Source: Cladocopium goreaui
Taxonomy: Eukaryota > Sar > Dinophyceae > Suessiales > Symbiodiniaceae
Assembly (NCBI GenBank): GCA_947184155.2
Contig: CAMXCT020003385.1
Coordinates: 1 to 64,000, forward strand
Direction: 5' to 3'
Length of the DNA: 64,000 nt
Shown: piece by piece, positions 31,594 through 62,700 of the stretch
Position numbering within the stretch: position 1 is the stretch's first letter
How the letters are laid out: the number at the start of each line of letters is the position of its first letter
Program-made: the position numbers and the translations under genes
Notes under the pieces: generated by a model
The model's database searches: none
Seen by the model: only the letters and a program-made list of their open reading frames with translations
What the model was told of the DNA's origin: nothing

Positions 31594-31621
31594 GGGCTCC
31601 CAGGGGTACCCTGGGTAGCCC
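31594..31621 (+). repeat. Hairpin A1
   Basis: Outer arms GGGCT/AGCCC, inner arms CCCAG/CTGGG, loop GGGTACC, one bulged T between the 3' arms. Ten base pairs, all Watson-Crick. Confidence 0.8.
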
Positions 31622-32185
31622 TCCCCACCTGCACAAGACCCATGAGGACATCTTAACACTGAACCACTAGCCTCGGATAGTAGAAGACCCGTTCCATAAT
31701 TAAGCAAACTAGCCTAAAGTGTTACATGCGCACCAGCTTTAACCTGGAGGACACCAAATTATGGGCGACTTTCGACTGCCCACCAATGATATGGCACCCC
31801 CAATGGATTAAGTGGTCCTACAGATAGGACTCAGTTGCAGCCGCTCGCGGAGACTCAGCTAAGCCCAAATATCAATCTGCTAACACTATTAGATTGCCAG
31901 GCTGCAGTAACTGCAAAACGACCATGTCCACCCCACAGTGGACTAAAGGTACATCTCGCAGTAGAGCTCCACTCTGTTTTGAACTCCTGTTTGCATCTTT
32001 CTGGGCGTCCAGAGGGAATCAACTTCCCGCCCAGGGGAAACGGTGGGAAGGGAAAAAAAAAATACCTCTCTGTACACCAGCTCCTCAGCAAACACAGGAA
32101 TCGTGAAGCAGAGTGCAGAACGTTTTGCCCTGGGAGGATAGACTAGCGGTGGGATCACCACTATGCAACTGCCATGCGACCCTTT

Positions 32186-32213
32186 CTGTTCCCAAGGGTA
32201 CCTTGGGTAAAAG
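32186..32213 (+). repeat. Hairpin A2
   Basis: Outer arms CTGTT/AAAAG (one G-A mismatch), inner arms CCCAA/TTGGG, loop GGGTACC, bulged T. The inner arm differs from A1 by a compensated G-C to A-T change. Confidence 0.75.
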
Positions 32214-33262
32214 AAAAAAATAATGGATAAAGTTTTTCAGTGACCCGCATCGAGTTGCAAAGGCTCCTTCGGACTGATAAAAACTACGAAAAAGAAACAC
32301 TGTTTAATCTTTTACTGTCTCTGAATCTCGTTTTCTGTCTGTCCGTGGTCTAGTCCTGTACCGTGCCATTTTCTCTGACCCTCCGATCTACCTGCGCATT
32401 GTAGTCCACTGCACAAGCACAAGCTTGTAGGTTAGTTTTTTTGTTTGCGTCTTCGGTGCTCCAGGCCTTTCTACTCGAGTGCCGTACCAATGGTTAGGTG
32501 CAGCGGGTCGCGCTGAATACCACTGCCCTTCAGCGCTACTTGCCACTTAGATTGTTACCTTGTCGAATGAAGCATCTCATAGTAGAAACGAATGGATGAC
32601 ACTTCCCTGTCCATGCTCAGATGCCAACCAATGCTGGGTGGTTATTGCTGACTCGCATGTCTTAGGGAAAGATATATCTTCTCTGCTCCAACCATAATGG
32701 GTACTATCAGCACACTACCCAAGCACTCAACCGTAATCGCCCACCTGTAGCGAAACTGTGGGTGGATGTTCCACAAAACTGGCCAAATGGATAAAGGTTG
32801 CTCCCAGAAATAACTCTTGCCCAATTGTCATTAGTCCAGTTTACCACATTGAAGAAGGCCTTGTTCTAATAGTTATTGCCGCGTTGGTAGCAGAGCCAAG
32901 CTGAGCAACGCATATGCTTAGAGTTGGTTTCCCACTATCATTTTGCCAGCCGGCACACTATCTTAGCCTAAGTTATAGTACTACCATCAACGCGGATATA
33001 CGGAACTCCGCAGAATTGTCCAATAAATGAGGTTCACCCCCGGGTGATGGACATCGCTTCCACACGACACCGCTGAAGATCCATGGCCATGCGCCACCGA
33101 CGCAGGACAGAGAAGTACCACAATGACTCCTCCCTCGTGAGGAGCAATTGAGCCGGTAGGACATCCAGTGCCGCCAAGTTCAAGTAGATAGTGCTCTCGC
33201 CGCCCATTGCACCTCATACTCAGAGCTTGATAGCCTAGAGTGCTAGCAGTGTAGGATAGCTG

Positions 33263-33290
33263 CTATTCCCAAGGGTACCTTGGGTAATGG
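33263..33290 (+). repeat. Hairpin A3
   Basis: Outer arms CTATT/AATGG (one G-T pair), inner arms CCCAA/TTGGG, loop GGGTACC, bulged T. Confidence 0.8.
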
Positions 33291-34530
33291 CGAGATTCTT
33301 AACTACTACTCCGAAATGCGGTACACTGCCCCAAACCGGTGCCATCTTAGTGTTCTGTACTTAATTCGCGCCGAAACAACCTTTGCCTTGCCTTATATGC
33401 CAGACGGCGGCATGCAGCCGTGAAGCTCTCTTTGGCCAGCAAGTCTTGGCGCTGGTGTCCTGGACGGAGTCCAACCGGAGCACCAGACATTAATTTGCGA
33501 TAGCTCGTACACATGCGCGTCAAGTAAGCTGCTCTTGCACGGGCTTGCCTTTTCCTGCCAAGGCCCATGGCCTAAGGATCAAGTTTTTGAGCCACAAGTG
33601 TTACTCCAAAATCTATTAGCACAGAACAGCGCAAACTCTATGGGCGTCAACAATCAGTCACAGGTAGCTAGCAAGATTTTCTGACAAATAAGTTCGTGCA
33701 CAGACCAGCCTCTTGGACAAACTACCCTCTCGGACATCGCAAGAGCTCCCGACGAAGATCAAGGACCATGGTAAATGTTGATGGAAATACTTCCGCGCAT
33801 CGATGCACTTAGGCCTCTTCGGATTGGTACAAGGCACAAAAAGGAGCTGTGGCCACGGTGAGCTCTCCAGTTGCCGCATTTGAATCGGAATCACCATCTG
33901 TCCAAAGGAAAGATATAAAAGGTATCCCTTTGACCCACAGCTGTGCCCGATCATTGTAATTTACCATTATTTCAAGCTTATTCACTTTTTTCGGGCATAT
34001 CCTTTTGGAAGGTTTTGATTGCGGTCCTTGTGACAAAAACTGAGTGACCATGGAATTATTCAATAATTTTTCAGAGATTGATGAACTCCTTAGACATGCT
34101 GCTAACAGCTGCTGGAAAGACTGGTGTTTCCTAATTACTGGTGGCATAGCTCCAGCCAATGTCCTTGGCTCTGTACCACAGGGGTGTTTCTCTAGTCATT
34201 GGCTGCTCTTAAGTAATCACCTGGGGATGACACTACACCAAATACTATTACATTGTTGTAACGGCTTTGACATTTGCCTCCTTACTGCCACAGTCCAATC
34301 TAGACCTATAAGTATGCAGGACGCTAAGAATAGCCGAATAGCCACTAGGGCCTCAAAACATACTATTGACATGTTACAGTAGGAAGGTGCGTAAGTGCAT
34401 ACTACCTGTCTATCTTTGTCAGTGCGTCCGTGAAATTTGGCTAGAGCTTACCCGCCTCTGTTTTTCCTGTCCACCACCCTGTTTGCTGCCGAACGTCCAT
34501 TAGCGCTGTACAGCATTTCGGACCTGATTC

Positions 34531-34800
34531 ATGCACAGGGCAGCGCGCAGCGCAACTGCTGACCATGTTCGTGCCTTACTCCAGCAGCTCCTTTTTGTCC
34601 ATCGTGTTAAACTTTTGGCCATGAGATTGCAGTACCAGTTGGAGGAAACCATGGATGACCTGGACGACATAGGGTTTGACGAGCAAGTACTAAGCGGAGT
34701 ATTACGAACCGCCCACCTGGAGATCAGTGCATTTATCGCCCGCTGTGACCGAACAATGCTCACGACGGAACAACGCATCCTGCGTATACTACTGCGATGA
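34531..34800 (+). CDS. Small helical ORF of element P, 89 aa
   Basis: ATG to TGA, Leu/Arg/Glu-rich and probably all helical (LLQQLLFVHRVKLLAMRLQYQLEETMDDLDD). No known family. It resembles in size, position and composition the first ORF of element M (54,400-54,675), which also contains long amphipathic helices; I cannot show homology by eye. Sequence to 35,278 stays open in another frame from a GTG at 34,727 and includes GVPPRLRI, close to GVPPNLRI in the second ORF of element M. Confidence 0.45.
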   Translation: MHRAARSATADHVRALLQQLLFVHRVKLLAMRLQYQLEETMDDLDDIGFDEQVLSGVLRTAHLEISAFIARCDRTMLTTEQRILRILLR

Positions 34801-35740
34801 AGTGCGGAGCAGCAATGTACAGATAGAATTTTTCAACTCGGCTACTCTGAGTGCCCACCTGCTGCCAAAAAACAGTCAAGCAGTCAGCAATCCGTACTCC
34901 CTCGAAACCGCCCTAGGCCCCCTCCAACAGGTGAGTCGACACATTGTAGGAGTACCCCCCCGCTTAAGAATAGAACGGATTGAAACTGCTTCCCGCACTC
35001 AACCATTTATCTCAGCAGTCCCTCATGCCTTCACCCCCCGCTGTGCCCCTCACATCAGTAGGAATATGACACATGTGTCTTTCATTCCTCCACTGTTCCC
35101 AAGGGCACCTTGGGTAATGGTGAAGGTTCAGCTTCGCTTTCACCCTACCAGGCACTCATCTCACATGGTTCACACACTCATGACTGTCACCCCTCCTCCC
35201 AATATCCTGACGGCCATATATCCTCTCACTAATGTGCACTCCTTGCTGATAGTGCTCCTCAGGGTCCATCGTTTCTAGTATATCTTGCGCAGGTAGTCAC
35301 CCCCTCCTGTCATGTACTGCTGCCTCACCACTTGCCCTGCCCCTTGCTACCTCCTCCTGTGTCATGTCTCTACTACCGAACCACAATGCACCTTCACTCC
35401 AATCCTGTCACCGGTTACATGTTGCACATACTTCCCACCGTTGCAGTGTCTGGTATTTTGTCAACTGTGCCTGAACCGAACATGATTCACTGTCTCCGTA
35501 AGCAGCCGTTGGCTCGAACTGTGAGGACATCGCACCTGCATAAGCCAGTGTTGCCTGGATCCTCATTGACCCCAACTTCTAATTTGCTCGCCCGTTCATA
35601 CATTCAAGCCAACACGGGGTTCTCGTTGTTTGGCCGCTGCCCGCAATAGCGAGTGGTTCCTGTCGTTTGGTCTTAACCATACGCCGTGCAACTGCCTCCA
35701 CTCCGGAGAGTGCTGCCACTGCAGGGTACCTGCTGCTGGT
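34801..35740 (+). other. Interval before the 493-aa ORF
   Basis: A 183-codon frame starting at a GTG (34,727-35,278) is the only long frame; its coding status is unsure. Holds hairpin A4, and hairpin A5 spans its end. Confidence 0.4.
35093..35120 (+). repeat. Hairpin A4
   Basis: Outer arms CTGTT/AATGG pair only if two G-T wobbles are allowed. Inner arms CCCAA/TTGGG, loop GGGCACC, bulged T. Confidence 0.75.
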
Positions 35741-35741
35741 A
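35714..35741 (+). repeat. Hairpin A5, touching a start codon
   Basis: Outer arms TGCCA/TGGTA (one G-T), inner arms CTGCA/TGCTG (one T-T mismatch), loop GGGTACC, bulged C. The last paired base is the A of the ATG at 35,741. Confidence 0.65.
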
Positions 35742-37222
35742 TGCCGAAGCCAAACCCTTTTCCGTCTGGCCAAATCAGTGTTTCTGATCAACACCTACTG
35801 GACATATCGGCTGGAATGAATTGGGACATGCCAGCAGCCAGCAAAGTTCGCTTTCTTGCAGTGAGGGGCACAATATGGGTAGGAGATTGCCAAGCAACAT
35901 ATAACTTTACGCTGGTAGAATACCACTTGCATATTGACGAGGTGCCATGGATTCTCTTTTCTACTCTTGCAGACGTTCTTGAGAAAGAGTTTGACCCTGC
36001 CTTTTGGGAGACCGTTAATTACGGCCGGAAAGAGAGGTGGGGCTTTCTTGAACCACCCTGGGATGGGAAAGTCTACGGCGCTGCGCCACCGTATACCCAA
36101 GTCCGACTATCCATCTTTAATCGTGACGCTCACACCATGCGAGTTGTGCAACCTTTTGTGTGGAACCATACCCACCTGAAAGTTCACCCGAACGGAGCGT
36201 TGATTTTCCATGACAAAAAGAGATTAGCTTTCCTGCTGCCTTTGATCGTGGAAGCCCATGAGTTGCTACCGCCGAAGCCATTGTTCTGGGTCACTGATGA
36301 CAATACCATCCCATTGTGGAGAACCACCCTGTGGACGCATGAAGAAACTGTACAGTGGTTAGCTGAGACCGGAGAGCCGTACCCACCTGAGCTACGAGAT
36401 GAAATTCAGCCTGCAAAGCAGCCAGTACAAAAACTGCAAGCAGACACTCCACAGGACCCCAAGGGTACTCAGAGCACGCCACAGCAAGTGGCTGACCGAG
36501 AGCGGCAATATATGGAATTGCAGTCTATCATTCATCAGGCGAACCAACAAACGTTGGCAGATAGTCGACCAACGGAGGCTAGACAGACCCGAAAACCAGC
36601 CAATTTGCTGGCCGCAAGTCAACAAAGCACAGACAACGCGGCAACTGCCGCATCGTCCAATCCCAGTACAGACGTGGTGGCAGAAGCTCCAGCCCAGCAG
36701 CAAAGCAAGCCACCTGACAAAATCAGTGCACAATCTTTATCTCACAGAAGACCAGGCCCACCATCAGCCCTGCCTGCGAACAAAGCGCAAACGGATACCC
36801 CGGGTACCGGCGTGTTATCCTCTGACTCTCACTCTGCAGCTCACAGCAAAGATGATGAGCACCAGCAACCTCCGGAACAGTCCGCAGCCCACGACGACAC
36901 ATCAACAGAAGAATCGTCGCCTGCAAATTCACCCAAAGAATCGCCAGAGACTCAAGCAACTGACACTGCGGGTGCTAGCAGCCCTGAGCCCGCCAGCGAA
37001 TCCAGGCAGGACGTCGACCTCGCCGCAGTGGACATCCCGACGTTACAGAACATGGAGAAGACAGCCTGTGAAAGAGTAGCTTTCCATGAAACGCGGCTTG
37101 TCCATGCCCGCGAGCATCTCACGCGCATTAGAAAGCGCCTTAAAAGAATGCAAGATGACCAATCATCAGACACTCTGCAACCCTCTCCTGTTGCAGATAT
37201 GGAAATGGAAATCATTGACTGA
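35741..37222 (+). CDS. Element P ORF, 493 aa, globular N-terminus and C-terminal coil
   Basis: The frame is open from a TTG at 35,630; I choose the first ATG, which sits at the edge of hairpin A5. Residues 1 to ~235 look globular and aromatic-rich (RFLAVRGTIWVGDC, DEVPWILFSTLADVLEKEFDPAFWE, PPKPLFWVTDDNTIPLWRTTLWTHEETVQWL). Residues ~240-430 are Gln/Pro/Ser/Thr-rich and disordered and contain hairpin A6. The C-terminus (~435-480) is a basic amphipathic helix (METRL-like runs, HAREHLTRIRKRLKRMQ). No known domain. ORF4 of element M (387 aa) has the same plan and relative place, so they may be counterparts. Confidence 0.65.
   Translation: MPKPNPFPSGQISVSDQHLLDISAGMNWDMPAASKVRFLAVRGTIWVGDCQATYNFTLVEYHLHIDEVPWILFSTLADVLEKEFDPAFWETVNYGRKERWGFLEPPWDGKVYGAAPPYTQVRLSIFNRDAHTMRVVQPFVWNHTHLKVHPNGALIFHDKKRLAFLLPLIVEAHELLPPKPLFWVTDDNTIPLWRTTLWTHEETVQWLAETGEPYPPELRDEIQPAKQPVQKLQADTPQDPKGTQSTPQQVADRERQYMELQSIIHQANQQTLADSRPTEARQTRKPANLLAASQQSTDNAATAASSNPSTDVVAEAPAQQQSKPPDKISAQSLSHRRPGPPSALPANKAQTDTPGTGVLSSDSHSAAHSKDDEHQQPPEQSAAHDDTSTEESSPANSPKESPETQATDTAGASSPEPASESRQDVDLAAVDIPTLQNMEKTACERVAFHETRLVHAREHLTRIRKRLKRMQDDQSSDTLQPSPVADMEMEIID
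36793..36820 (+). repeat. Hairpin A6 (degenerate, inside the 493-aa ORF)
   Basis: Outer GGAT/ATCC, inner ACCCC/GGCGT (one C-C mismatch), loop GGGTACC, 3-nt bulge. It falls in the disordered linker of the protein. Confidence 0.5.
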
Positions 37223-37697
37223 CCATACAGACAGCTAGTACTGCGTGCACCTGACTGTGTGAAAGCACCTGATCAGTGCCATTTCTAATGCCGCCTACTC
37301 CACAGATGCGCCAAGAGAAAAGCAGCTGCGTGCCAGGATAATTCCCCCCAAACCTACTGTAAGGGAGAGTACCCACTCAAGTATGACCCCCATAAATTGG
37401 AGTAAGAGGATTTAAGGGGATTTTTGTATGCTCAGCCGTCTTGGTTAGGCGTGTGTCCCAGGTCCTGTCACCGTTAGTCATCTCAACTTCTGTCGAACTA
37501 ACATTTACTTTGGGCAAAGAAGGTTGCATCAACTGTCAGTGGCTCAATTGTTCGCACTGCAGCTTTTGTGGCTCCACTAGTTGTCATAGCTAGGTCAGCC
37601 ATCCGACATCAATTCGCATACCAAGGTGTAAGACAAACCCTGATTGTTTTGTTTCCTATCTGTTTCACCTCCAACGAATTGGCCCCGCAGCGGGGAA

Positions 37698-37725
37698 CCT
37701 TGACCCCGGGTGCCGGGTGTTCGGG
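37698..37725 (+). repeat. Hairpin A7 (degenerate)
   Basis: Alignable with A8: CCTTG/TCGGG outer, ACCCC/GGGTG inner, loop GGGTGCC, bulged T. Only the three loop-proximal pairs are good, so it looks like a decayed copy. Confidence 0.5.
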
Positions 37726-37810
37726 GTTTCCCTAGCCCAGCCAATCCTGTTGACACATTTTGCACTCACTGCTCATATAGCATTCACTATTTTCGCCTGG
37801 TCACTTGGCA

Positions 37811-37838
37811 CCTGACACCCGGGTACCGGCTGTTCAGG
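37811..37838 (+). repeat. Hairpin A8, 17 nt before a start codon
   Basis: Outer arms CCTGA/TCAGG perfect, inner arms CACCC/GGCTG with one C-C mismatch, loop GGGTACC, bulged T. The ATG of the glycosyltransferase-like ORF is at 37,856. Confidence 0.75.
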
Positions 37839-37855
37839 GTCAAGCCGGCGTCAAC

Positions 37856-39042
37856 ATGCTGCAGCAGCTTATGACACCAAACAGGTTCATTGCATTGACG
37901 TCGCCTGACCCTGATGACTCAGATACAGACATCGAACCAGCAGAACCAACCGCCCCAGATAACACAGTCGAGGATGTGTCAATGGACAGTGATACAGAAT
38001 ACTTTGACGCCCTCAAAGCAGAAGATGACGCTCCGTATTTCCAACAAGGGGCCGAGCCTCCCCCAAGGGAACGGTGGGAAATTGCCGCACCTATAGATTT
38101 CCTCAACGTCCAGGAGGTCACTCAATTAAGCCACCAGCTTGATGAACTTTTCCTCTCGCAAAAAGAGGTTGAGACCCCGCTCGGCATGGACGATATTAAA
38201 CAGAGGTGGAAATGGGACGATGTGGGCTCTTGTCGAATGCCCCGGTCACCCCTGACATACCCCGCACTCATGGTGGACGAAGGGAACGGCGTCCAACGCC
38301 CCGCAGCCAGCCAGGTCCATCATAAAACGCTCTTCCAGTGGATCATAGATAATCTCTCATGGTTACCACAGTATGCCACTGTTTATGTTTATGTGGACAA
38401 TCGCAAACTGTCAGGCACTGATCCTCCAGCCTACTGGCCGCAATTTGCACCCTGGATCAAGGGCCGATGTACAGTAACTGGCCCTTACCGGGAGAAAACG
38501 ACTGCCATTTATTTTCCCATTCATGCTGACACAGGTTTGCATCAGGTCCATTATACCTGGGCTGGTGCTGCAGCTCTGGAGGCACTGTGCTTAATGTTCC
38601 CCATGGTAAATTTTGCACTAATCGACTCTGACTGTGTGCCGACCTCATTGTTTGAGATAGCCGAACTAATCAATCTTATGACGGATAAGGCAAGCAGAGC
38701 CGAAGCAATGCAACACAACACAATGGCCAGCTCTAGCCAGTGCCCTCCGGCAGTACTCCTCGCCACAGAAGCCAAAGCTGAACTCAATGCCGGCTTAATC
38801 ATTGTGACAGGGCATATCCCGACCAATGCAGCTGATGTTGAAATGGACCAAGAAACCCCGGATGCATTCATGCCCCTGGCTACTGCCCAAAGCTCCTGTC
38901 CGAGTGATGCACCCGCCCCAAAGGCAAGACGAATAGCTCACCCTGCCAACCGCCGATCAGCAGATGACTGGGTCACCGCACTTAAAGATAGCCGAGCCAG
39001 TTTCCTTGCTACAACCGCTGTGCCAGAAGACCCTGCTGAAGC
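37856..39042 (+). CDS. Glycosyltransferase-like protein of element P, N-terminal half
   Basis: First ATG after hairpin A8. An acidic leader (~1-90) precedes the conserved part: KTLFQWIIDNLSWLPQYATVYVYVDNRKLSG, then YREKTTAIYFPIHADTGLHQVHYTWAG, then NFALIDSDCVPTSLFEIAEL near residues 255-275. IDSDCVP supplies a DxD-type motif as in GT-A nucleotide-sugar transferases; this assignment is tentative. The minus-strand gene at 46,724-48,931 is a clear paralogue. The frame is broken at 39,042/39,043 by the 15.7-kb insertion and resumes at 54,770. Without the insertion the ORF would run 812 codons to 56,021, uninterrupted. Confidence 0.75.
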
Positions 39043-39591
39043 TTTTTTTTTTCCTCCGGTTTGGCCGATTCGCACTAGGCACGGTCCTTACAATAGCGTA
39101 AGCGGTGAAAAGCATTGGGAAAAGGACTCGTGTGGTCCAAAAACGCGGGCAAATCATCACATCAACACAAACAAAAAACCAAAAAAACCCAACCAAAACG
39201 ACCCGCAAATCCCCCAGCCAGATTTGCGTTTCGCCATAAAGCAAACAGCGAAGCAACAAAGAACGGGGCCGGGCCCAAACAAGAACCAAACCAAACAACT
39301 TGAGATTTGCCTTGAATACAGTGACCTAAGCCACTGTATCATCATCAAAAACATGCAAACTAATTAAGTGCGGCAGAGCGAAAAATATAGTACACGATCA
39401 CCCAGATTCCAATCATCCATACAACCGTGACTGTCACTCCAGCTCTCTGAAAGGTAGGCAAAGCAGGAATAGCTGACAGTACAGCTCGTATCAGTTGCCA
39501 TTCTCATTGTCAAAGTTGGTCCTATGATGATGAGTGAAGTTGGAGTCCAATCTCTGTAGTAAGATACTGCCGCAGTGGTGATGTGACTCAA

Positions 39592-39611
39592 TACCCCCCT
39601 CAAGGGGGGTA
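39592..39611. repeat. Perfect 8-bp hairpin with TCAA loop
   Basis: TACCCCCC, loop TCAA, GGGGGGTA. CAAT/ATTG lies just outside and could extend pairing after a gap. It lies in the 3' region of element M about 550 nt before the poly(A) tail, where it could act as a 3'-end RNA structure. No U-tract accompanies it. Confidence 0.7.
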
Positions 39612-41405
39612 GGGATTGACAGCCTGTAGGTCATGCAGGACAATAACTGTAGTTCATCCCAGATGCTGTCATATCGTAGGAAGCCAAGAGGACCTGAAAC
39701 GGTGCCAATGGTGAAAGATCTCCGCAGAAAAAAAAGGATCCTCTCCGTAAGGTCATTGCAGATGAATAGAATACACTCGTGCAGAGGGGAGGCTTAAGCA
39801 AAGAAAGATTGCTACTCAGCGACCTGTACACAATTGCGCCGCTCGCACATGGCAATCGAGCTCAAGCCACAAACTTGAAGAGGTGGCTAGGTTTGCTGTA
39901 CCAGCACCAGATTGACTAGCAGGATTCACAAGGTGTCATCGTCCCAGCAAAAACTGCTGCAAGTCAGATGTTCCAGAGGTTCGCAGTGCATCTCACATAG
40001 GGCCACTCTCCCCTAGAGTGAGCCATGAGCAGAATCACAACGTCCCATCAGCGCACCGATCCATGTTGGCAGGCTTTGCTGCACTAGGGCGCTCCAGACT
40101 GAACAGCAGGAAGCACCACTGGACAGCGCCAGTAGTGCTCACTGCAGTGCAGCCTGGTCCATGGCTCTACCGGGGATCTACCGCCCCTCCCGGAGAAATC
40201 GCAGAAACAAAACAGAGCGAGAAGGGCCCTCCCCAGACAGCCAACGAAAAAGCCACATGAATCAAACAGCCAAAAACCGCAAAAAGACATAAAAGAGGTA
40301 AAACAGAGAGGAGGGGACGGTGACAGGAATCTGCCCCACCGCGAACGAATTCAGAGTAACTAGAGATAAGACCAATGTAGTGAAGGTGAAATGACAGAGC
40401 AATGATGTAGAGCGGTGACCTCAGTATCCAGGCAACAGGTAAACCAGATGACACAACAACCACCAAAGAGAACCCTGCCATCATGGGGGAAAGCACATCA
40501 CAAAAGGGGGGAGAGGCCAAAACAAAACACACACAACGACACCGGCCACACAGAAGGAGCGAGGAGAGGAGCCAGGAGGCAGCAGAGGACAGAGGGAGAG
40601 GGACACACCCGCACCAGAAGGGGTACAAACGTGCCTTAACGGAGTTCAAAAAAGGGGCCAAGGATCATACTATGATGAATACCTCAGTGAGGGTGCACAC
40701 AGCACTCCAACAGCACAGGAAACATGGTGTAGAGGGAACGAGCCCCACACAGGGCCAAAGGCCTTTAGTGCCATGAGACACAATGAAGAGGGGAAATCAA
40801 TGCACAACAATCACTCCAAGCACAGAGGCAAGGCAACCAGGCCGTCGCCGGAAGCAACGATACCCAGAGGGAGGGACCAGTAAAACCTGGACCAAGGCGC
40901 CAAGGAGGAACATCCGAGGGGGAGTGAGGGTCACGTCAGGCAGGGAACAGTAACCACAAACCGAAAGGGACAGAAAAAGGCACCAACACCTAATGAAGCT
41001 CTGCGGATGGCAAAACCTATGGATGAGTCAGCGAATTCAAGTGCCTTGGTTGGTGGAAAGGGTGGGGGAGTGGGTGGCTAATCAAGACTACATCTGGGGA
41101 CAACAACAGCCTCTTCACCCATCGATGATTGTCAGGCAAAGCCTGCGAGAAAGCGAGTGCGTGCACTAGGCTTCATGGCAGAGGCAACCTTAGTACAAGC
41201 TAAGCTCTCGACGGGACAGCACATTCAGAAAGCGGGTATTACCGAAGCCATGCGGCCCGATCTGTTATGCCTAAGCTGGCACTCGCACACAAAGCCAACT
41301 GTGGCTCCCAACTGATGGAGAGATCTGGGTTGGTTGGAGCCAGGCATGTGTCGCATGATGAGCCTAACAATTATAAATGGGGAAACTGTGTCTCCTGCTG
41401 CATAC

Positions 41406-41440
41406 CAGTGCACCTGTCACGTCTTTGGACAGACACACTG
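41406..41440 (-). repeat. Hairpin B1
   Basis: Plus-strand arms: outer CAGTG/CACTG, inner CTGTC/GACAG, 3x3 internal loop, apical loop ACGTCTTTG. All ten pairs are Watson-Crick. Lies 0.2 kb beyond the helicase stop codon. Confidence 0.85.
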
Positions 41441-41637
41441 CGTATGAGCAGTAAACTTAAGTAGATGTGACAATTGAACCAATTAGACACGTAAGTCATC
41501 ATCCACCACCGTGATTGATGAAACAAAAGCCAACCAAAGGGTGAAAACCCAGAGTGAAACAGAAAAGAGATAAGGGGAGGGGGGAGAGGGGGTGGACACA
41601 CGAAGGAAAGTGTGATACTGGGGGGTTGAGCTGGGGA

Positions 41638-49386: not shown

Positions 49387-49435
49387 GCACGAGAGAGAGA
49401 AAAGAGAAGAATGGGAGAGGAGGTGAAGGGAGGCG

Positions 49436-51039: not shown

Positions 51040-51064
51040 ACTTACCCCTGGAAATAAGTAATCG

Positions 51065-51100
51065 GAGGCAACCCTGACAGTCTTTAGCCAGAGAGGCCTC
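51065..51100 (-). repeat. Hairpin B6, 25 nt before the ORF5 ATG
   Basis: Outer arms GAGGC/GCCTC perfect, 4x4 internal loop, inner CTGAC/GCCAG (one A-C mismatch), apical loop AGTCTTTA. Confidence 0.8.
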
Positions 51101-51638
51101 GCACTTATATTTGCAACCACGAAATTCATAGATGCCTAGGCAGGATGCAGAGGGGTGTATAAGGAACTGTAAAAGGACTAGTAACATATCAGACCATCTA
51201 AATTTGAGCCGATATTGCTTAGCAGATCACAAGAGAACAGTTCGCAAGGGCTTGCAAGTTGATACAACGAAAACATAGTAGCCAGTCAGAAGAAAACGGC
51301 CTGTGCTGTATAGCATATCTAGGATCCCATAGGTCTAAAGATCGATCTAGTTGGTATGTGACAAGACTTGTATCAGGAAAGTCTCGGTGAGGATCAGGAG
51401 TCCGATGCTTTTATTTGAGCTGAAAATTCTGCGGGCCTTCTATCGAGCAGCGTGGCAAGGGGTCCCATGCAAGAAGACTCCTCTACTCGACTGCCAGAAA
51501 TCTGGTAGCAGATATAGCAACTAGTGCACTTACCATCTTTTTATGTCCTGCATCCTCAGCGTGAGGAAAGAGCCACAGTCTTCGCTGCAGTTCCTTCGGA
51601 CTGTAGACAGCATGCAGATGTCAAAGGTCTAATGTCAC
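51101..51638 (-). other. Interval between ORF4 and ORF5 of element M
   Basis: About 0.54 kb with no gene, repeat or further hairpin that I can see. Confidence 0.5.
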
Positions 51639-52802: not shown

Positions 52803-53227
52803 GACTGCCCACCAGGGTTTACAAGGGTATGGCAGAAGCAGGAACGGTGTGCAGGAAGAGAGAGGAGAGGAAACAATCACAGACGAGTGAGAGGGACGGA
52901 CCAGAAAGTAAACACGAGGGGCCAACAGTTACGGACAGCAGCAGAGGTGGCAATAGGGGGCAGCCAAAGAGAGGGGAAGAAGACGTGGCAAAAGAGAGGG
53001 AAGGCAGAATAGAGAGAGGGTACTCCCCTGACACGTCTTTGGTCAGAGGAGTGGGAGCCCTGTACATGGGACGGTGGTTTGAGCCACAGGTATGCGGTAG
53101 GGTATACTAAGAATGATGCCGTATCTCTACCTGTAGACATGTACCAAAGTCACGTGTACTCATGAATGCACATGCTGATCATGCACGCTGCCTTGGCGGA
53201 AACACAACTCTCTTTTTGCCAGAATTT
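52803..53227 (-). other. Interval before ORF4 of element M
   Basis: Purine-rich on the plus strand (52,840-53,020); no gene. Contains hairpin B7. Confidence 0.55.
53022..53052 (-). repeat. Hairpin B7
   Basis: Outer arms ACTCC/GGAGT separated from inner CTGAC/GTCAG by a single C-A mismatch rather than the 4x4 loop; apical loop ACGTCTTTG. It lies about 220 nt upstream of the ORF4 ATG. Confidence 0.8.
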
Positions 53228-53758
53228 TTAAATTGGCAATATCACACCTAAGGATGATAAGCATAGTCCTTGCTTCGCGCCAGTTGATTCATCAAAAAAA
53301 GTTAAACAGTGAGTAAGTTCAGTGTAACTGTGTTGTACATAAGCTGTGGCAATGTACATTGTAGATGAATCCGTGAGGCCTATTCCTTCACGGGACAGCT
53401 GTTCAAGGAGCCCATCATCAAGGCGATCTACCGTCTCTTCCTTGATCGAAAAAACGCAAGGGGTCCTATGCATGAGTCCATTGGATATGAGGAGATAGTC
53501 TTGAATTTGTTGCTCTTCGATTCGGATTACTGCGTGTGTAGCAGTGTGTGCAATCCAAGTCTCCGCATCAGGCATTCGTAGGTGCAAAATTAGCAGTTCG
53601 ATGTTGTCTCCTATCACTGCAGATGGAGGTCTTGCTTCGAGCGAGGTTGCTCCGATAACTCCATCCACAACGTCTAAGTGCTTCATTTCGTCACCATGGC
53701 AATTCCGTATGCGCTGTCTGACTAGGTCTCCGTGTCTAGCGTAATTGCTTGGAAACAT
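53228..53758 (-). CDS. ORF3 of element M, 176 aa, unknown
   Basis: ATG to stop, starting MFPSNYARHGDLVRQRIRNCHGDEMKH. Mixed alpha/beta composition with IELLILHLRMPDAETWIAHTATHAVIRIEEQQIQDYLLIS. No recognisable motif, signal peptide or membrane helix. It is the longest frame in its interval and lies in series with its neighbours, which is the main support for coding. Confidence 0.5.
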   Translation of the reverse strand: MFPSNYARHGDLVRQRIRNCHGDEMKHLDVVDGVIGATSLEARPPSAVIGDNIELLILHLRMPDAETWIAHTATHAVIRIEEQQIQDYLLISNGLMHRTPCVFSIKEETVDRLDDGLLEQLSREGIGLTDSSTMYIATAYVQHSYTELTHCLTFFDESTGAKQGLCLSSLGVILPI

Positions 53759-53928
53759 CTAGTGATCTCAACCGATAACTACTGAGTGGTATTGTTGGAT
53801 TTGTGTTGTGAGGTATCAACTCTTGAGCAAACGATGGCACGCGTAGGTAATGAGTGGCACATAAACCATGTTGCTGCACCGATCTGTTATGCGGCAACTC
53901 TAAAATCCACAGCCATTTCACTGTTTTG

Positions 53929-54306
53929 TTATAGGAGGACGACCTCCGGCGCACTCAACTCTCTGTCGGGACTGCGAATGGCCGCAGTGGGCGGGTCCTG
54001 CACGAGAAGACTAAATCTTATGGCGGGAGCCATCATTCTGGCCACTTCCGCTAGGAGCGTGTTAGGTTGGAGTCTTTGCATCGTTGAATTAGTTCCAACG
54101 GCTGCGGTGGTCCAGATGCGGAGGTTCGGTGGCACCCCTGACCGTAATAGTAGGAAAGCAACTTCCACTACTGTATCAGCTGCTTGCCGCATGGTTCTGC
54201 GGTCCAAGAATCCGCCCAGGGTCGCAGTGATATGTATTGTCTGAATGATTAACCGAAATGGTCGGGCATCCATTGGCACTGGGGCAAGTCCCGCCTGATC
54301 GGTCAT
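53929..54306 (-). CDS. ORF2 of element M, 125 aa, unknown
   Basis: First ATG of a frame open from 54,384. Contains MRQAADTVVEVAFLLLRSGVPPNLRIWTTAAVG. GVPPNLRI is echoed by GVPPRLRI in the open frame at 34,727-35,278 of element P, hinting at a shared small protein. Function unknown. Confidence 0.4.
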   Translation of the reverse strand: MTDQAGLAPVPMDARPFRLIIQTIHITATLGGFLDRRTMRQAADTVVEVAFLLLRSGVPPNLRIWTTAAVGTNSTMQRLQPNTLLAEVARMMAPAIRFSLLVQDPPTAAIRSPDRELSAPEVVLL

Positions 54307-54399
54307 GCCTCCATCAGCAGCTGGGACTAAGTATAGGTGGTTGACCCACACACCTCGTGTAGACGGGCGACTAAAACCTGCCACTCGGACTATGTCCTC

Positions 54400-54675
54400 C
54401 TACGATGCTGCTAGTGCTGTCAAGAGATGCTGTGTGATGCGCTGTCCATCCACTTCAACTTGCTGGAGGTCAGCTTCTAAAGTGTTATATATCAACTGCA
54501 GTCCATGTGCTTCTTCTGGAAAAAAGGTGACACATCCACTCTGCACTAGCCGTACTGTGCGCCTGAGGTCTCGTACAGCCACCATAAGGTCTTGCGCTGC
54601 TTCCAAGCTATATAAGATCATCTTAACTGGCATAGAGAAGTGGTGTTCTTCTCCGCGGAGTCGCACATAATCCAT
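54400..54675 (-). CDS. ORF1 of element M, 91 aa, helical
   Basis: First ATG of the element, 75 nt from its 5' end, so well placed for ordinary scanning. Likely helical (MILYSLEAAQDLMVAVRDLRRTVRLVQ, then GLQLIYNTLEADLQQVEVDGQRITQHLLTAL). Unknown family. It may correspond to the 89-aa ORF of element P. Confidence 0.5.
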   Translation of the reverse strand: MDYVRLRGEEHHFSMPVKMILYSLEAAQDLMVAVRDLRRTVRLVQSGCVTFFPEEAHGLQLIYNTLEADLQQVEVDGQRITQHLLTALAAS

Positions 54676-54769
54676 GGCAGTACGGGTAGAGAGAGTGGAG
54701 GCCCACTATACAACACAAATATTGCTGTCTTGCATTTATCGTGAGTGAAGCAGAAGACCCTGCTGAAGC

Positions 54770-56021
54770 AATGAGGGGCGGGCTGCTTCTCACCCCCCTA
54801 CTAGGATGTAAGGCTAGAACCCCGCTTGACTGGACACATGCATGGGCGATGTTGGGCGAATGGGCGGGAGCCATTGCATTCCCCATCCCGGAGCAAGGAG
54901 AATGGCCACGTCATGGAGATGGCCGATACCTTAGACCGGACTTTGTCGAGCGGACCCCACCATTCCTTACCTGGGCGCGTCCCATTTTCGAGCAAGGTGC
55001 ACTCTCCCCTATGTCAGTTTTCCCGGCCGACTTCCTCATCCTCTGTCTTCCAGGAGACAAGTTGTTCCAAAGCAAGGAGTTAGCCATAGGGTATAGCCTG
55101 CCGCCAATAGTGCACGCCTTCCATGGGAGTGAAGTAGGCCTAGGACACCAACTCAAACAGTGGCTAAGCAAAGGGCTGCAACCGCTTGCTGTGTCGCTCA
55201 TAGGAGTCGACGAGGCACCACCGTTATGGACACACCCCACAGGCTGCGATTTTGTTCGAGGGAATAAAATAGTCGCCAAGCCGCATGTCCCGCAAAACAG
55301 AAGCCTTACTAAGACGCAGGTGTTGCTTCTCCAGAGCCTTTGGACACCAGTGGACGCCCCCAACAGCAGCAATAACCATACACCTTGGCCCAAGGCTTGC
55401 GAGCCTGCCATCGTCTTCTGCGGTCAGCATGCGAGCCTCCAGCTTCCCACTGCCCCAATCCTCCCTCTGTTGGAAGCGCTGCAACGACGACTGGAAATTG
55501 ACCCTAGCAACGCAGAGCTAGCTATCAATGAGGTTCTTGCTAGCCATACAGACCCCAAATACACTGATTGGAAAATCACTGTCATGGACAACACCTCCTG
55601 GCAACTCAATGACGCTGACCCAGGGTCCCTGGAAGTTCAGTGCACTGGGTTGGGTGGAGGTGAACTTGATGAAGATTGGGACGTACTGCTAGCTTGCAAA
55701 AAGGAAGCGCATGTGTATGGGCCATCCCTTAGCAAACAGGACGATTGGAATGCAAGAGCTGGCACAGTAGCAGGCACTGCCCACACACAAGAATACCTGC
55801 TACTGCACATTGCCATGTTTCCCATAGGTGCACACTTCTGGTGCCGCGTCTTAGGAATGCCCAGTGCGAACCAATTGCAGGCGCAAATCATCAGTCGGGC
55901 CATGAAACTGTTGCGCTTCTGCCCTATCATCCCGGCACACAGGAAACCTCCGTGGCCCGGGTACATACATGGCCTGCGGCTTTTCACTAAGTTACTAGTT
56001 GCACACCCGCTAGCCCAGTAG
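54770..56021 (+). CDS. Glycosyltransferase-like protein of element P, C-terminal half
   Basis: Resumes the frame broken at 39,042: EDPAEA continues as MRGGLLLTPLLG. Conserved blocks shared with the element M paralogue: DWTHAWAMLGEWAGAIAFPIPEQGEWPRHGD, FEQGALSPMSVFPADFLILCLPGDKLFQS, LEVQCTGLGGGELDEDWDVLL and AHVYGPSLSKQDDWN. Frame and blocks look intact, unlike the element M copy. It ends HPLAQ at 56,021. Confidence 0.75.
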
Positions 56022-56044
56022 ACCTTCTGAGATTAACAGGATAC

Positions 56045-56242
56045 ATGGTAGGCTCTATCTACATCCGAGGGCACAGCGCTGGCTCGTATGCAGGAATGGT
56101 ATGGGAGACTATCCTCTCGGAATTCCCAGACATTGAAGGCAAAACCGTGCTAGCAGCCATTGCTCTGCCACCATCGCTGCTGACGACATACAACTTATCT
56201 CAGATGAGAGAGGTCCACCTCATTCACCATGCAAACCCGTAG
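56045..56242 (+). CDS. Alpha/beta-hydrolase fragment, 65 aa
   Basis: ATG to stop: YIRGHSAGSYAGMVWE has a GxSxG nucleophile elbow with the preceding strand and following helix, and ends MREVHLIHHANP. Upstream of the ATG the frame stays open and reads SPVDLLRLTGYMVGSI, so this may be the frameshifted tail of the glycosyltransferase-like protein. It lacks the rest of a hydrolase and cannot be a full enzyme. Confidence 0.5.
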   Translation: MVGSIYIRGHSAGSYAGMVWETILSEFPDIEGKTVLAAIALPPSLLTTYNLSQMREVHLIHHANP

Positions 56243-56547
56243 CCACTGGCTCAAGGCTGTATCGGCTCAAACCCCGTGGGTACTGGGTAACCTGATTTTA
56301 ACTCAAGGGGCAAACATCCATCTTGGGTGATTTGCGAGAGTTAATTTTGGGGGCACCAGTAAAAAAGGGGCTAGGGTAGTACTGCCGTAGGAAGAGCACA
56401 AACGTGCCCGCCAACCTGTTTGTTGTGAGGATAATTTGGGAGGGGGGGGTTTTATCTTAGTTTTGTTGATTTAAGATCTACCTTCTCTGTTTTGCCCACT
56501 TGCATTGTGACCGTTGAACACACCATTTTTGAACCCCACTTGTTTAA

Positions 56548-56574
56548 GGACTCCTGGGGTACCCAGTGTAGTTC
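56548..56574 (+). repeat. Hairpin A9
   Basis: Outer GGACT/AGTTC (one G-T), inner CTG/CAG plus one C-T mismatch, loop GGGTACC, 2-nt bulge. Confidence 0.65.
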
Positions 56575-56606: not shown

Positions 56607-56634
56607 AGGCTCACTGGGGTACTCAGTGTAGTCT
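56607..56634 (+). repeat. Hairpin A10
   Basis: Outer AGGCT/AGTCT (one G-T), inner CACTG/CAGTG, loop GGGTACT, bulged T. Confidence 0.8.
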
Positions 56635-56697: not shown

Positions 56698-56725
56698 CTA
56701 TACCCAGGGGTACTCTGGGTTATAG
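56698..56725 (+). repeat. Hairpin A11, 8 nt before a start codon
   Basis: Outer CTATA/TATAG, inner CCCAG/CTGGG, loop GGGTACT, bulged T. All pairs Watson-Crick. The ATG of the 2,410-aa ORF is at 56,734. Confidence 0.85.
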
Positions 56726-56733: not shown

Positions 56734-59700
56734 ATGAACCACAACCCTCATGACACTATTGAACAACATGCCATTGAGTTGGTGTCCAGTCTTGGGAAGG
56801 AACATCTTTTTGTTGCCAACTGTCCAAGTGATATTGACTCGAACAGATATTCAGGTACAGTGATCACTTATGAAGAAGCTTTTGACCACAGTGATACAGG
56901 AGTCGGCCTCTGCCTGTTGCTCCCCAAAGCTTATGTCCTTCAGAAATTCATAGACATATGCCTTAACAAAGATATTTCTGTTCATTTTGTCTTCACTTGT
57001 TCAAGCAGTACCAGTGAATTTGAAGCTTCTGCATGGCTATACAATCTCCTCAATGATAAGGTTCAGCATGTTGGCTTCATGCAAAATCTTGGAGTTACTT
57101 TTTGCTCCGCAAATAACCAAGAGAAATATCTCATTGCATGCCAGGTTGAACCTTATGCCGAACATTGCCATGTTTCTTGGCCTCGACCCTGCAGAACGCT
57201 GGAGTATGTCTTCCCCAGAACCGTTGTTGAACGACACCAGACGATCAGTGAACTTCAGAGCCTCTCTGTAGTCAACTATATTGATTTCAGAAGACCCAAT
57301 GGATGCCATCGTATATCAGATAAGATCGATGTTACCTCACTCACTGTCCAAATTGCCAATGATTGCTTGGCAGACATCGAGCTTGTTGAGAAGATTTTAC
57401 AGCCAACTGTGGATGCCGCTTGGTTGCATGGACTTGCAGAATGTCAGGTTAAGCATTTCTTTCCATGGGATGACTCAGAATTCCAAAAGCATTTTCCACA
57501 TGGAATTACTATGTCAGTATTGGATTTGAAGGCTTTTCCGAATACCGTACTTAATGAGATTCTTGTCCAACTAGCCAACCTTAAAGTGAGGTACCACTTC
57601 ATGAATTACAGAAGGCTTGCCATCTTCGGATCGCCGTCACTTGTCATTAATCTTCACTTAGCTCTTCTTCCATTTGATGTACATCTGCCAATTGGGCCTA
57701 AACAGGGTGCTTTCACTGTCCACATGCTGCGAACAGAACCACATTGCACACAGGCTGCCCATGATTCTAATCACTTTCAAGTCAAATTTGGAAAGATTGG
57801 CTCCTTTCAGTACGCACCTGCACAGATTTTATGGGCGGAAATCCCCTCATCTTTATGTAAGGAGAATCAACTTGACCAATCAAATCAATCATCTTTAATA
57901 CGATTGCTCAAACAAAAAGTGGGAGCTGTTAATTTCTCCATTCGTTGGTGCCAGGTTGACAGGTCGCAGCAAAAGTGTCTCTGTTTTGATATTGAGATTA
58001 AGCATGAAGACTCTCTCCCTCTCTCGCTGAATTGTGACCCTGGCCAAGTGGTTATCCAGCACCAGTGCCCCTCTGCAGAAGACTTTCGGGCTGATGTGTC
58101 CCTAACTGAAGTCGAAACCAGGCGGGATCACTGGAATAAAGTCATTGCTCAGCAAATGATCCCTAAAGAAGGCAGGATCAGTCATCTTTCTTTCGAACCG
58201 AACAAGAAACAGTCAGCCAAAAGATATTATGATTTACGCACTACTGTCATTGACTCTATGCAGGACTTCACCAATATCATTGCCATTGCGTCCCAACCGC
58301 CGGCCTGGTTCTTCTCGCCTAAAGAGTTGCATATGCCTTTGATGGAATGCTTACAAAAAGTTAATTTTTGTGACAACTCTTTCATCCAGGAATCCTTTGT
58401 GGTGAACTCTGACACTGTTAAGATTGATTTACTTCATCATGAATTTATCAGGCATAGGGACCATCAGAAATGGCTTTTTTATCACATCGTCCTGGGTCCC
58501 GAACAGTGTTTTCATTTGAAATCCATCCACTTTGAGCGTGATGAATGGAAGGTACGATACTATGATGAATTGATCATACGTACTTTTGAACCATCCTCAA
58601 TTTTTATCACACTCCCACCTGGAATTTCAATATCGCAGGTCGTCGATCAAACGCAAAGTTGTTATCTCCGAGAAGCATATGCCTGTATCGTACCATCACT
58701 AAGAACCCCTGTTGTTGGCACTACCCATGCTGGATTGAAAGAGCAGTATACTAATACCACACCAACTGCTCATTTTCCAAATGGCCATGGAATGAACGGT
58801 GATAAGAGTGTGCCCTCTCATGGACAGTCGAGTCCAACACCAACAGGGAATAGACCGGCGTACCACCCACCTTACAAACCCAGGCACAGTAGAGGATCTC
58901 CCAACATACCCCCTGAGGGTGATATTGAGATGCAGCCTGCCCCAACCAATCACAGCAAACCCCCAGAACCCCCGGAAACGCATCATCAGGCGCCTGCTGG
59001 CGAACACTGTGATGATGTGCCCATGGAATGTATTGCAACAGCGCTTGATCCGGTTGACGATGATACTGGTAGTTCTGATAAAGAATCGCGCCAACTTGTA
59101 AATACTCTCCATGGTCATTCCCCTGTCGCCTCTAACAGCAACCTTGCCAAGGACAACCTCGATCAGACTCACCATAGCGAACCAGGACAAAATACCCAAA
59201 ATGGCATTATGAGCAGCCCCAATTCCCCCAAAATGAAACACTTGCACCAGAACGCTGGTATGCACACCGACCACGAAGATGTCGCCAACGTGGGGTACTC
59301 ACGGTTGTGTGACACTTCCCAACCAGAGAAATTTATCCCCAACGCCACTGTTCAACTCTCATTAATGAACTGCCCCGCTCAGAGAAAGGATGCTACCCAC
59401 GGACCCACTCATACCCACTCCATGCCTCAGGCCGCACAATCACTTAAACCTCCTACGAATATTGCCAAGGACCCAACGCCGAAACAGCAAGACCAATCTG
59501 GCAATCTTACCTCACAAGTTGGTTTACCAGCACACAAGAGCCAGGAGACCAGTAAACAGGCGAGCCACAACAAAAATGAGCACAAGGGTACACCTAATCA
59601 ACCACCCGGAACTATCCTTGACTTCTTAGCGCAGAATGCCGCCTATCAACCACTGGATGATAAGGCGCAAACGCATGCTCCTAGTGATGATGTAATCTTT

Positions 59701-62700
59701 GTCAAAGCCTCACATAGCCCTATTGACAATATCCTCTGTGGCAGCGAACAAAGCAGTAATCTCCTTATTTCCAATAGAGAAATCATCAATGGATGGCCCA
59801 GCTCATTTTCCCATGCTGATAGCGATTACTTTTCCAAGCTTGCAACGTGTTATCACATTAACTTCCCAAGCTATATGTGTTATGCGGTTACTGCACTTCG
59901 TGTCCTCACCCATGCACCTTGGAATGATAACATGTTCCATGGCCATATCAGAGAATTAGTCTTATGCGCTATTGGCAATGGATGGACATGGGCTGACCAG
60001 ACTGCTACTGTGCAAGGAAGACGAGTGAGCGTTGGAGAAGTCTGCGCTGCTTTTGCCAGCTACCTGAATGTGAATGCCTTTCCACCCGGGCAAGTCTCTG
60101 ACCTTGACACCGCGATTATTGCAGCCTGTGATGATTTATTTCCGGAACATTGCGAATTCTTCTTTGCGCATTTTCAGGTGAGCTGCCTTTCATGTAATGC
60201 ATCAGGCAAGGTTTCTGCTGCTCTGTTCGATACAATGTTGAGTATTAACCTTGAAAATGATACCATTGATCTTACACAAATGATTGCAAATCGGGCTCCG
60301 CGACTTGCGCTTGACAGGGAGGATGTTGATTTCTCTCATGCCAGTGACTGTTTCAATGAGGACCAACAAAGCAATGAAGAGATTGAAGGTTGCTTGACTT
60401 TCACCCTTAAGATTACAAGCCCCTTTGAGCAGCTGCCAATTGCCACCAAGGCATTAAACCTCCTTGGACAGCTCTTTGACGTTCCTACCCTGAGTGTCAA
60501 TCCTGTTTCTCAACCTTTCATTATCACTGGTATCATTCTTGTTCAAGGAAAGTCATCACACCATTTTCTTATCATTGAACGGTGCAATGAAGAACAGGTT
60601 CTTGTCTATGATAATCTACGAGGCCATGTTTGGATCCCGGTCAAACAACTGAAGGCAACCGCCGTTGTATGGGGTTTTGTTTTTCGTCGGCATGAACATC
60701 AGCCTTACTCCTTCCAACCTCCGCAGTATAAGGCCATTGCACCTGCCACACTTCAGTGTGCCAAGCAGTCTCAACGACTCAAAAAACCAAAGTTAAAACC
60801 TAAGAATACTATTGGCATCAGTGCTAAACGGTATCAGGCCCCCAGTTTTTCAAGAAAGAAATTGGGAAATCACAGTACTTCAGATAAGCTGACCAAAGCA
60901 TTGAATGACAAGACAATCGACTCCCCACTGCCAGGTGAGAACCTTCCTCCTGACGATATCCCGAAACACACCCACCCTGAACACAGTGAGGCGGGTGATC
61001 AACACGGGGTACTCGTGGTTGGTTACCCACCCACAACTGAACACACGTCTCTCCCCCTGCCAAATGAGTCGGCCGGCAATGATCATTGCTGCCACCATGG
61101 GGTACACATGGTTGGCCCTGGTCCGCCGTCTCCTCATGGTAGCACACCCATTCCACAGACTGGCCAGAACGATGACATAACGGGTGATGTGTCTGAAAGC
61201 CACTGTGGGGCACCCACAGTTGGCCGCACGGACACTCCTCTAAGTGATAATGTTACACTACTCCGTGCAGACCTTAGTAGTAAAGAGCTTGCTGCTGTTC
61301 CCTACCCTCATGAGACTGAGGCTTTGACACCAGTCAGTATCACTGCGAGTGCCCAGTGCTCAAAGCATGAGCATACGCCAGCAGAGGATGTCCGGTCATG
61401 CCCTGATGATAACTGCAACAAATTCAGTCCATCATGTGCACATGCTGATAGCTTTCGCCCTCCAGCCAGTGGAGAGACTTGTGCTCCCCAGAGTTCCTTT
61501 GTGAAGGAGAAAGATGCATCCCCTCCCAAAAGGGCTAAGCATTCCAAAGTTTATCCATATGCCATCATTAGCCTTTTTGACGGCGTAGGCTCAGCCATTC
61601 CGGCCATCACTAAAGCTATAGGATGTGCCCCGCGTATCATCATTGTTGCAGAATGTGATCCAATCCTCAGACAACTCGTGGGGGAACAATTTGGTCTTCG
61701 CACGGATGGTGAATGGACCCAAACCAGCAAAGACACTTACACGCTCTATGCAAACGATGTGCGGCAGCTTATTCGCAATCAATGTCAAATACTCAAGGAA
61801 GCATTTGCATTAGCTGGACCACAGTGCCGCTGGTTCGTAATTGCGGGTTCACCCTGTCAGGACCTCACCCCAGCCGGTCCCTTTAAAGGACTCCTTGGAC
61901 TCACTGGCCACTGTAGCTCCCTTTTTTATTATGTCCACATAATTCTGTGGCTTGTGCAAATGAACTATCCTCTTGAATACATCCGTTTTCTGCTTGAAAA
62001 TGCAGGTGCCATGCTTGACATTCATCGCAAAGCCATCCTCCGTGCCCTTGGGCTTAACCCTGATTCCACTCCTGACAGCTTCCGAGTTGACCCCAAGAAT
62101 ACACATGGAATACGACGTAACAGATTCTACTTTCGCAACTACCAAGACTGTGTCAAAGTCTCTAAGGCGGTCGTCCTTGAACCAAGTGACATAGAAGGAC
62201 CCTTATTAGACTTTGATGGTCATCCGATTCCTTTTGGACCACTCCTACGAGTCAGATCTGTCCTGGGTCACAATGTGTATCAGCTATCTTGGACGGCATA
62301 CCAACCAATTTCTCTTATATGGGACTACCTCTATTGGGGAGATAAAGCTCAATTTCAACTCCAAGCCAAAATGCATTCCAGTGATATAATCCCTGCCCTT
62401 GATTTTGAGAAATCCCTACCGCCACACTATTTGCGTGCATGGAATCGTTTCTTGCAGTCTCTCCGACAAAAAAATGTGAGTACCATTGATAGAGACCGGC
62501 TTGTCCGGGCTATCCTTCCAATATTCCATCATCCCCACATCAAAGCACCCATGAGAATCTTGTACTGTGAGGAAGTCGAAAAACTAGCTGGATTATACAA
62601 CCATTTTGACCGAGTACAAGCACATCGTTCGCTGCTCACTGAGTTTACAGTTAGAAACTATTGTGGCAATAGTTTTCATCCTGAATATATTCAAGCAGCC

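Follow-up and report, generated by a model that had tools for sequence, protein, structure and literature searches.

Dispersed sense-strand hairpins of one design in a LINE-like element of the dinoflagellate Cladocopium goreaui

Results

The locus and its two nested element copies

The window analysed here is a 64,000-nucleotide (nt) stretch of contig CAMXCT020003385.1 from the dinoflagellate Cladocopium goreaui (assembly GCA_947184155.2, 1.17 Gb in 6202 contigs). It carries two nested copies of an element that resembles a long interspersed nuclear element (LINE). About 16 hairpins of one design lie on the sense strand of this element, and their sites agree among the copies examined. The order of the element was taken from the copy on contig C4445, which was read over 40 kb and is the one copy covering all four open reading frames (ORFs). 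It runs from a 5′ untranslated region (UTR) through ORF A, ORF B, a zone of 4.5 kb without long ORFs (the B–C zone) and ORF C to ORF D, which is open to the end of the stretch read. The element is over 28 kb long in that copy (pieces L033 to L036), and its 3′ end lies beyond the stretch. ORFs C and D were found downstream of ORF B in both copies read there, namely the C4445 copy and element 1 of the window.

Element 1 occupies 26,728–39,042 and 54,753–56,232 and is interrupted by a 15.7-kb insert with long ORFs on the minus strand. Its own ORFs are on the plus strand and comprise the 3′ part of ORF B (26,728–31,227; reverse transcriptase, RNase H-like), where the frame is broken, ORF C (35,741–37,222; 101 homologues) and the 5′ part of ORF D (37,856–39,042), which, by the order in C4445, resumes at 54,753–56,232 after the nested insert. 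Element 2 interrupts ORF D of element 1 from about 56,236 onwards and extends past the end of the window, with ORF A at 56,734–63,966 on the plus strand. In the open C4445 copy, ORF B matched RVT_1 (E 3.1e-14) and, below the cut-off of 21.6 bits, RVT_3 (E 0.0013, 19.0 bits); a scan confined to the C-terminal 1800 of its approximately 2061 residues gave no match to Exo_endo_phos. ORF A has a DNA methyltransferase (DNMT)-like domain whose match to PF00145 is weak even when the domain is scanned alone (E 0.1, 12.4 bits against a cut-off of 22). A match of ORF A in the PDB was to a DNA methyltransferase (4onj, E 0.028), and the residues FDGVGS, GSPCQ and ENAG, picked by eye, are presumably the DNMT motifs. 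No stop was present in 22 of the 27 element copies that were scored.

A spliced-leader relic lies at the 5′ end of element 2 (56,236–56,255, plus strand) and was found in all eight near-identical copies (L001 to L008), the window's own included. We take it to derive from the dinoflagellate spliced leader, and the sense of the element RNA is therefore the plus strand here. Two relics stand in tandem in L003 and L005, as if these RNAs had been trans-spliced and copied repeatedly.

The element probably belongs to the published SymbioLINE-Dnmt class (PMC5890265), for which that account gives two ORFs with conserved UTRs, a cytosine DNMT as ORF1, a downstream reverse transcriptase/RNase H ORF, Exo_endo_phos, target duplications and no poly-A tail. 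Both are LINE-like, place a DNMT-like ORF before the one for reverse transcriptase and have many open copies. They differ in their ORF number: here ORF B is followed by ORFs C and D, giving four ORFs over more than 28 kb in the C4445 copy, with ORF D exceeding 2600 residues and open to the end of the stretch, whereas the published description has two ORFs, and its main text mentions no hairpins. The claim that no dinoflagellate element of this form had been described thus fails for the host LINE class and stands for the hairpins to the extent that the main text of PMC5890265 contains no occurrence of hairpin, stem-loop or secondary structure. No description of such hairpins in a dinoflagellate element was found in the open-licence literature, at the level of titles and abstract openings and among the matches listed.

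Hairpin positions and design

The original prediction was a single family of about 15 copies running from 31 to 61 kb. All 15 positions show the hairpin, and the family is confirmed. Because two nested element copies lie in the window, the 15 hairpins over 30 kb are the sets of both: the hairpins are where they were said to be, and their spread is that of two nested copies of one element. Element 1 contributes four in the B–C zone, one on the start of ORF C, one within ORF C and two before ORF D; element 2 contributes three in the 5′ UTR and four in linkers of ORF A.

A strict search for the predicted loop enclosed by an inner stem, a 3′ bulge of one nt and an outer stem, with at least 8 base pairs, found seven hairpins on the plus strand and none on the minus strand, compared to a mean of 0.03 and a maximum of 1 in 60 dinucleotide shuffles scanned on one strand. 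A covariance model was then built from 10 copies and run over the window with filters off. It placed 14 of the 15 positions at 18.6 to 39.2 bits (E 0.018 or better), all on the plus strand, and the fifteenth, 37,698, at 14.8 bits; the next matches were at 35,608 on the plus strand (14.6 bits) and at 31,594 on the minus strand, the best antisense match (13.6 bits). Since 10 of the 15 copies built the model, the five that were held out are the fair test.

All hairpins are on the plus strand. Those of the B–C zone of element 1, each used in the model, are at 31,594–31,621 (39.2 bits), 32,186–32,213 (35.8 bits), 33,263–33,290 (37.0 bits) and 35,093–35,120 (34.4 bits). The held-out copy at 35,714–35,741 (21.0 bits) has a bulged C, and its last base is the A of the ORF C ATG. 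A second held-out copy, at 36,793–36,820 (18.6 bits), lies within a linker of ORF C at the peptide PGTGxLS and, by eye, has three bulges. Between ORFs C and D, the held-out copy at 37,698–37,725 has two bulged Ts and scored 14.8 bits (E 0.22), inside the noise, with 15.6 bits for its counterpart in C4445; the copy at 37,811–37,838 was in the model (32.7 bits). In the 5′ UTR of element 2, hairpin 1 (56,548–56,574; held out, 22.2 bits) has two bulged Ts, and hairpins 2 (56,607–56,634; 35.7 bits) and 3 (56,698–56,725; 38.0 bits) were in the model. The ORF A linkers hold a held-out copy at 59,283–59,311 (21.8 bits), read in the frame giving G-Y, and three model copies at 60,997–61,024 (31.8 bits), read in the frame giving G-V, at 61,090–61,117 (34.8 bits; 61,091 in the original prediction) and at 61,198–61,225 (34.1 bits). 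A sixteenth site inside ORF B (28,354–28,382) has decayed in the window to 13.3 bits and scores 25.6 bits in the C4445 copy (L035:2522).

The aligned copies are better described by an outer stem, a 3′ bulged T, a 7-base-pair inner stem that opens with C-G and closes with G-C and G-C or G-U, and a GYR triloop (Y, T or C; R, A or G). The 7-nt loop of the original prediction is mostly this triloop with its two closing pairs, and the single 3′ bulge, usually T, stands as the design (a bulged T 3′ of the C-G pair), although some copies have a second or third 3′ bulge. When 48-nt pieces were folded as RNA, 14 of the 15 gave the hairpin in place, 13 of them with the triloop, and the piece at 36,793 did not. 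Folding was more stable than in shuffles at z ≤ −2.7 in 11 of the 15 copies (z −6.4 at 56,698 and −3.1 at 37,698), and z was −1.8 at 59,283.

As a comparison, 200 kb of this genome, a small sample made up of twenty 10-kb pieces of four large contigs, was searched with default filters, and no match exceeded 13.0 bits. The sequence-only pattern NNNNNGGGYACNNNNNGTW, which does not require pairing, matched 15 times in the window, where 12 matches were family sites and 10 had all four variable inner pairs formed, and six times in the 200 kb, where one had the four pairs and that one lacked any outer pair. Rfam gave no matches at E ≤ 2 over 26,000–64,000, and 26 pattern matches on viral contigs included no relative.

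Pairing and conservation between copies

A covariation set was assembled from 33 distinct rows that the model itself had picked and aligned, hence leaning towards pairing. In this set, pairs formed in 94.3% of 385 cells compared to 61.6% after shuffling, the covariation score was 0.787 compared to 0.203 after shuffling and at most 0.178 when slid, and 120 cells were changed on both sides compared to 38.6. Covariation exceeded the shuffles on three of five measures. Among 25 distinct hairpins at 11 sites, G.T occupied 30 cells and A.C five, as expected for a sense RNA. Two compensations were clear: T-A to C-G at 61,198 in the copy on C94, and G-C to A-T at 35,714 relative to C4445.

Element copies that are 77–87% identical carry the hairpins in matching places. 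Five B–C zone sites compared between element 1 and C4445 were 0.89–1.00 identical, whereas the zone as a whole had an identity of 0.55 across 4873 columns when gaps were scored as mismatches. Of the 28-column windows in that alignment, 5.1% reached 0.89. The site at 35,093 was identical in the two copies, those at 31,594 and 33,263 were 0.93 identical, and the site at 32,186 was 0.89 identical between flanks of 0.58 and 0.30. In the 5′ UTR, compared to the diverged C94 copy, the hairpins matched in 81 of 84 columns and the rest in 112 of 261, of which approximately 46 are end gaps of the fetched piece. Five of six 5′ UTR pieces from other copies contained the hairpins, and the sixth (L039, contig C597) is unrelated sequence. 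Sense-strand-only matches, covariation and retention between diverged copies support the original prediction that the hairpins are an RNA structure under selection and not a protein motif; the points on the other side are weighed in the Discussion.

Two further observations concern the arms and the 5′ UTR. The B–C zone hairpins at 32,186, 33,263 and 35,093 and those at L035:6370, 7648 and 9332 have common arms, and the arm variants differ between copies at one site and match another site, as if copied between sites. A further 5′ UTR hairpin of similar build, with the loop TCT, lies at 56,310–56,335, and its copy in C4445 has a changed bulge base.

Hairpins within coding sequence

The coding copies use two reading frames and other copies are noncoding, as first noticed, and a protein motif is rejected because the hairpins occur outside ORFs and in two frames. 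The 19 homologues of ORF A, 49–98% identical to the query in their aligned parts, have conserved islands at the hairpin-site peptides when the linkers are inspected by eye, though not in all rows. One of them, P0010, is probably from another genome, since it matched this genome at best at 51% among 29 scored copies. Site peptides in the G-V/G-A frame could be encoded with all 12 pairs in 14 of 31 cases, compared to 1 of 134 other peptides, the exception being the window's own hairpin at 56,698. The other frame gave 5 of 11 compared to 3 of 57, and here the three exceptions, in P0010, P0013 and P0017, were a peptide of similar sequence at another position. Fisher probabilities were 5e-11 and 0.002, respectively, and are nominal since the rows are related. 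In ORF C, PGTGxLS was present in 62 of the 101 homologues and in 25 of 28 alignment rows (missing in P0102, P0104 and P0105), and PGTG peptides were able to form all 11 pairs in 11 of 15 cases compared to 1 of 207 others, with a same-site variant as the exception. From the codons, these results would fit peptides that are kept so that pairing remains possible.

Hairpins at start codons

Of all hairpin positions, those at start codons say most about a possible function. Hairpins end 8 nt before the ORF A ATG, one base into the ORF C ATG and 17 nt before the ORF D ATG. When the 10 noncoding hairpins were placed at random in the noncoding parts, this pattern arose in 7 of 200,000 trials, and when all 16 were placed over the element, at least three of the four starts were hit in none of 200,000 trials; the limit of 20 nt from a start codon was chosen after the data were seen.

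Other features of the window and of the element

The insert at 39,043–54,752 carries minus-strand ORFs partly related to ORF D as well as an ankyrin ORF, and on C4445 there is a 17-base overlap between its two flanks, as expected of a target duplication. On contig C5913, two element 5′ UTRs lie in the same orientation at 5492 and 37548, 32 kb apart, a spacing that may correspond to one complete element if the copies are tandem or nested. Residues 1060–1330 (approximately) of ORF A contain blocks that look cysteine peptidase-like by eye, with a weak Peptidase_C39 match at 1269–1320 (E 0.09), and are flanked by two hairpin-bearing linkers. Elsewhere in the window, the 9.1-kb stretch at 1262–10,358 consists of 2.27-kb repeats and matches its reverse complement at 99% identity; either it is a true giant palindrome or it arose in the assembly. 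At 12,449–14,287, AAGGTACCTTAAGG-type units form a satellite that is broken by an array of approximately 55-nt units, and a copia-type element at 14,727–26,727 has 783-bp long terminal repeats that are 98.7% identical and one open frame of 2422 residues with RVT_2.

Discussion

A shared loop and a shared bulge on stems that are otherwise free to vary, dispersed along one RNA, recall the logic of phage MS2 and lead us to favour the view that an RNA-binding protein docks on the hairpins and controls how the element RNA is translated and assembled. From the sequences considered, we would put this at a little short of an even chance. The genome of MS2 has been described as carrying dispersed, degenerate stem-loops with affinity for the coat protein, among them the operator that governs replicase translation (PMC4751978). 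The likeness, at the level of sequence and structure, is that of dispersed, degenerate stem-loops with a common loop motif; the difference is that the reader there is the coat protein, whereas here the bulge is on the 3′ side, the loop is GYR and the reader is putative. Each hairpin would dock one such protein, whose gene more probably belongs to the element than to the host. Recognition would involve the GYR triloop, the G-C pairs beneath it and the bulged T, the remaining stem only needing to pair. Where a hairpin meets the start codon of ORF A, C or D, it would then act as a translational operator, and the full set would mark the long RNA of the element and help its assembly into a reverse-transcribed particle. 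In its boldest form, the proposal is of a eukaryotic LINE with an MS2-like scheme, in which a self-encoded protein would read approximately 16 hairpins on an RNA of more than 28 kb, shut off or time the translation of ORFs A, C and D and then condense the RNA into the retrotransposition particle. So complete a scheme we consider rather unlikely.

ORF C was tried as the binder. Its AlphaFold models have a mean predicted local distance difference test score (pLDDT) of 46 and 58 and no PDB fold match at E ≤ 0.001, and we therefore claim no binder; a phage-coat-like fold for its four-strand sheet was dropped because no support was found.

Apart from these weak models of ORF C, several results weigh against the docking-site proposal or the selection that it presupposes. 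The ORF B start has no hairpin, and five hairpins (four within ORF A, one within ORF C) lie at a distance from every start. The minus-strand relative nested at 39,043–54,752 has no hairpin above noise in the covariance-model search of the window. The hairpins at 35,714, 36,793 and 61,091 fold no more stably than shuffles (z −0.15 to −0.29, the values at 61,091 and 35,714, respectively). On two of the five covariation measures the copies are no higher than shuffles: nine pairs changed on both sides compared to 8.7, and 29 further pair types compared to 27.6. Covariation within sites is modest, as pairwise comparisons, which are not independent, gave three double and 21 single changes that keep the pair, 15 one-sided changes that lose it and seven others unpaired in one or both copies. 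Hairpins make up four of the 13 conserved blocks in the B–C zone, among the matches listed, so other parts of that zone are also kept. PGTGxLS is missing in 39 of the 101 ORF C homologues, many of those short. Finally, PMC5890265 contains the suggestion that the DNMT ORF may itself bind RNA.

Among the alternatives, the one that survives best is that the hairpins are expression signals of a multi-ORF RNA, guiding internal initiation, re-initiation or the use of spliced-leader acceptors for ORFs C and D with no role in packaging. A hairpin at or beside three of four start codons, the 5′ relic that points to spliced-leader trans-splicing and the four ORFs of a single copy would all suit such signals; the four hairpins in linkers of ORF A and the one inside ORF C, remote from ORF starts, and the four that lie up to 4.2 kb upstream of ORF C would not. 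We regard this explanation as possible, though clearly less likely than docking sites.

Less probable is that the reverse transcriptase of ORF B itself recognises the hairpins as points of entry or template switching. In stringent-type LINEs an element protein recognises a stem-loop in the 3′ tail of the LINE RNA, and LINE ORF2 proteins bind their cognate stem-loop through stem and loop (PMC4176376). The common arms of three B–C zone hairpins, with variants as if copied from site to site, would be in keeping with such an activity. The likeness is a LINE RNA stem-loop recognised by the element's protein, which is putative here; the known signal, however, is in the 3′ tail, whereas approximately 16 copies here begin in the 5′ UTR and run to the start of ORF D, and none was found past that start within the stretch read, which ends before the 3′ end of the element.

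That a host protein or small-RNA machinery binds the sites for silencing, export or decay of the element appears improbable. Hairpins with a set loop and bulge are often read by proteins, which counts in its favour, but no copy was found in 200 kb of other sequence, a small sample, and upkeep through divergence favours use by the element.

Spreading of short palindromic repeats as mobile DNA, in the manner of REPINs or mitochondrial double-hairpin elements, is very improbable. Those are likewise short palindromic units in many copies, and the three near-identical arms in the B–C zone would fit, as would many copies of one design. Here, however, the hairpins have fixed sites and one orientation in one element, the same sites recur in the other element copies, the stems differ between most sites, and the 200 kb sampled showed no scatter of independent copies. 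Palindromes that arose by chance around a GGTACC core, which the nearly palindromic loop and the GGTACC satellite at 12,449–14,287 might suggest, or a conserved protein motif are refuted at the level tested by the shuffles, the strand bias, the sequence-only pattern counts, the 200 kb of other sequence, and the two reading frames with noncoding copies.

Whichever protein may read them, the hairpins allow members of this element family, which has many open copies in the genome, to be recognised by structure. If the docking-site proposal is true, dispersed covarying hairpins, in part directly next to start codons, would represent a new route by which a retrotransposon recognises and regulates its own RNA, and the dispersed set would differ from the LINE signal found in print, a stem-loop in the 3′ tail (PMC4176376). 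As one design occurs approximately 16 times, a single short RNA could serve to fish for the binder, and the question is thus open to experiment.

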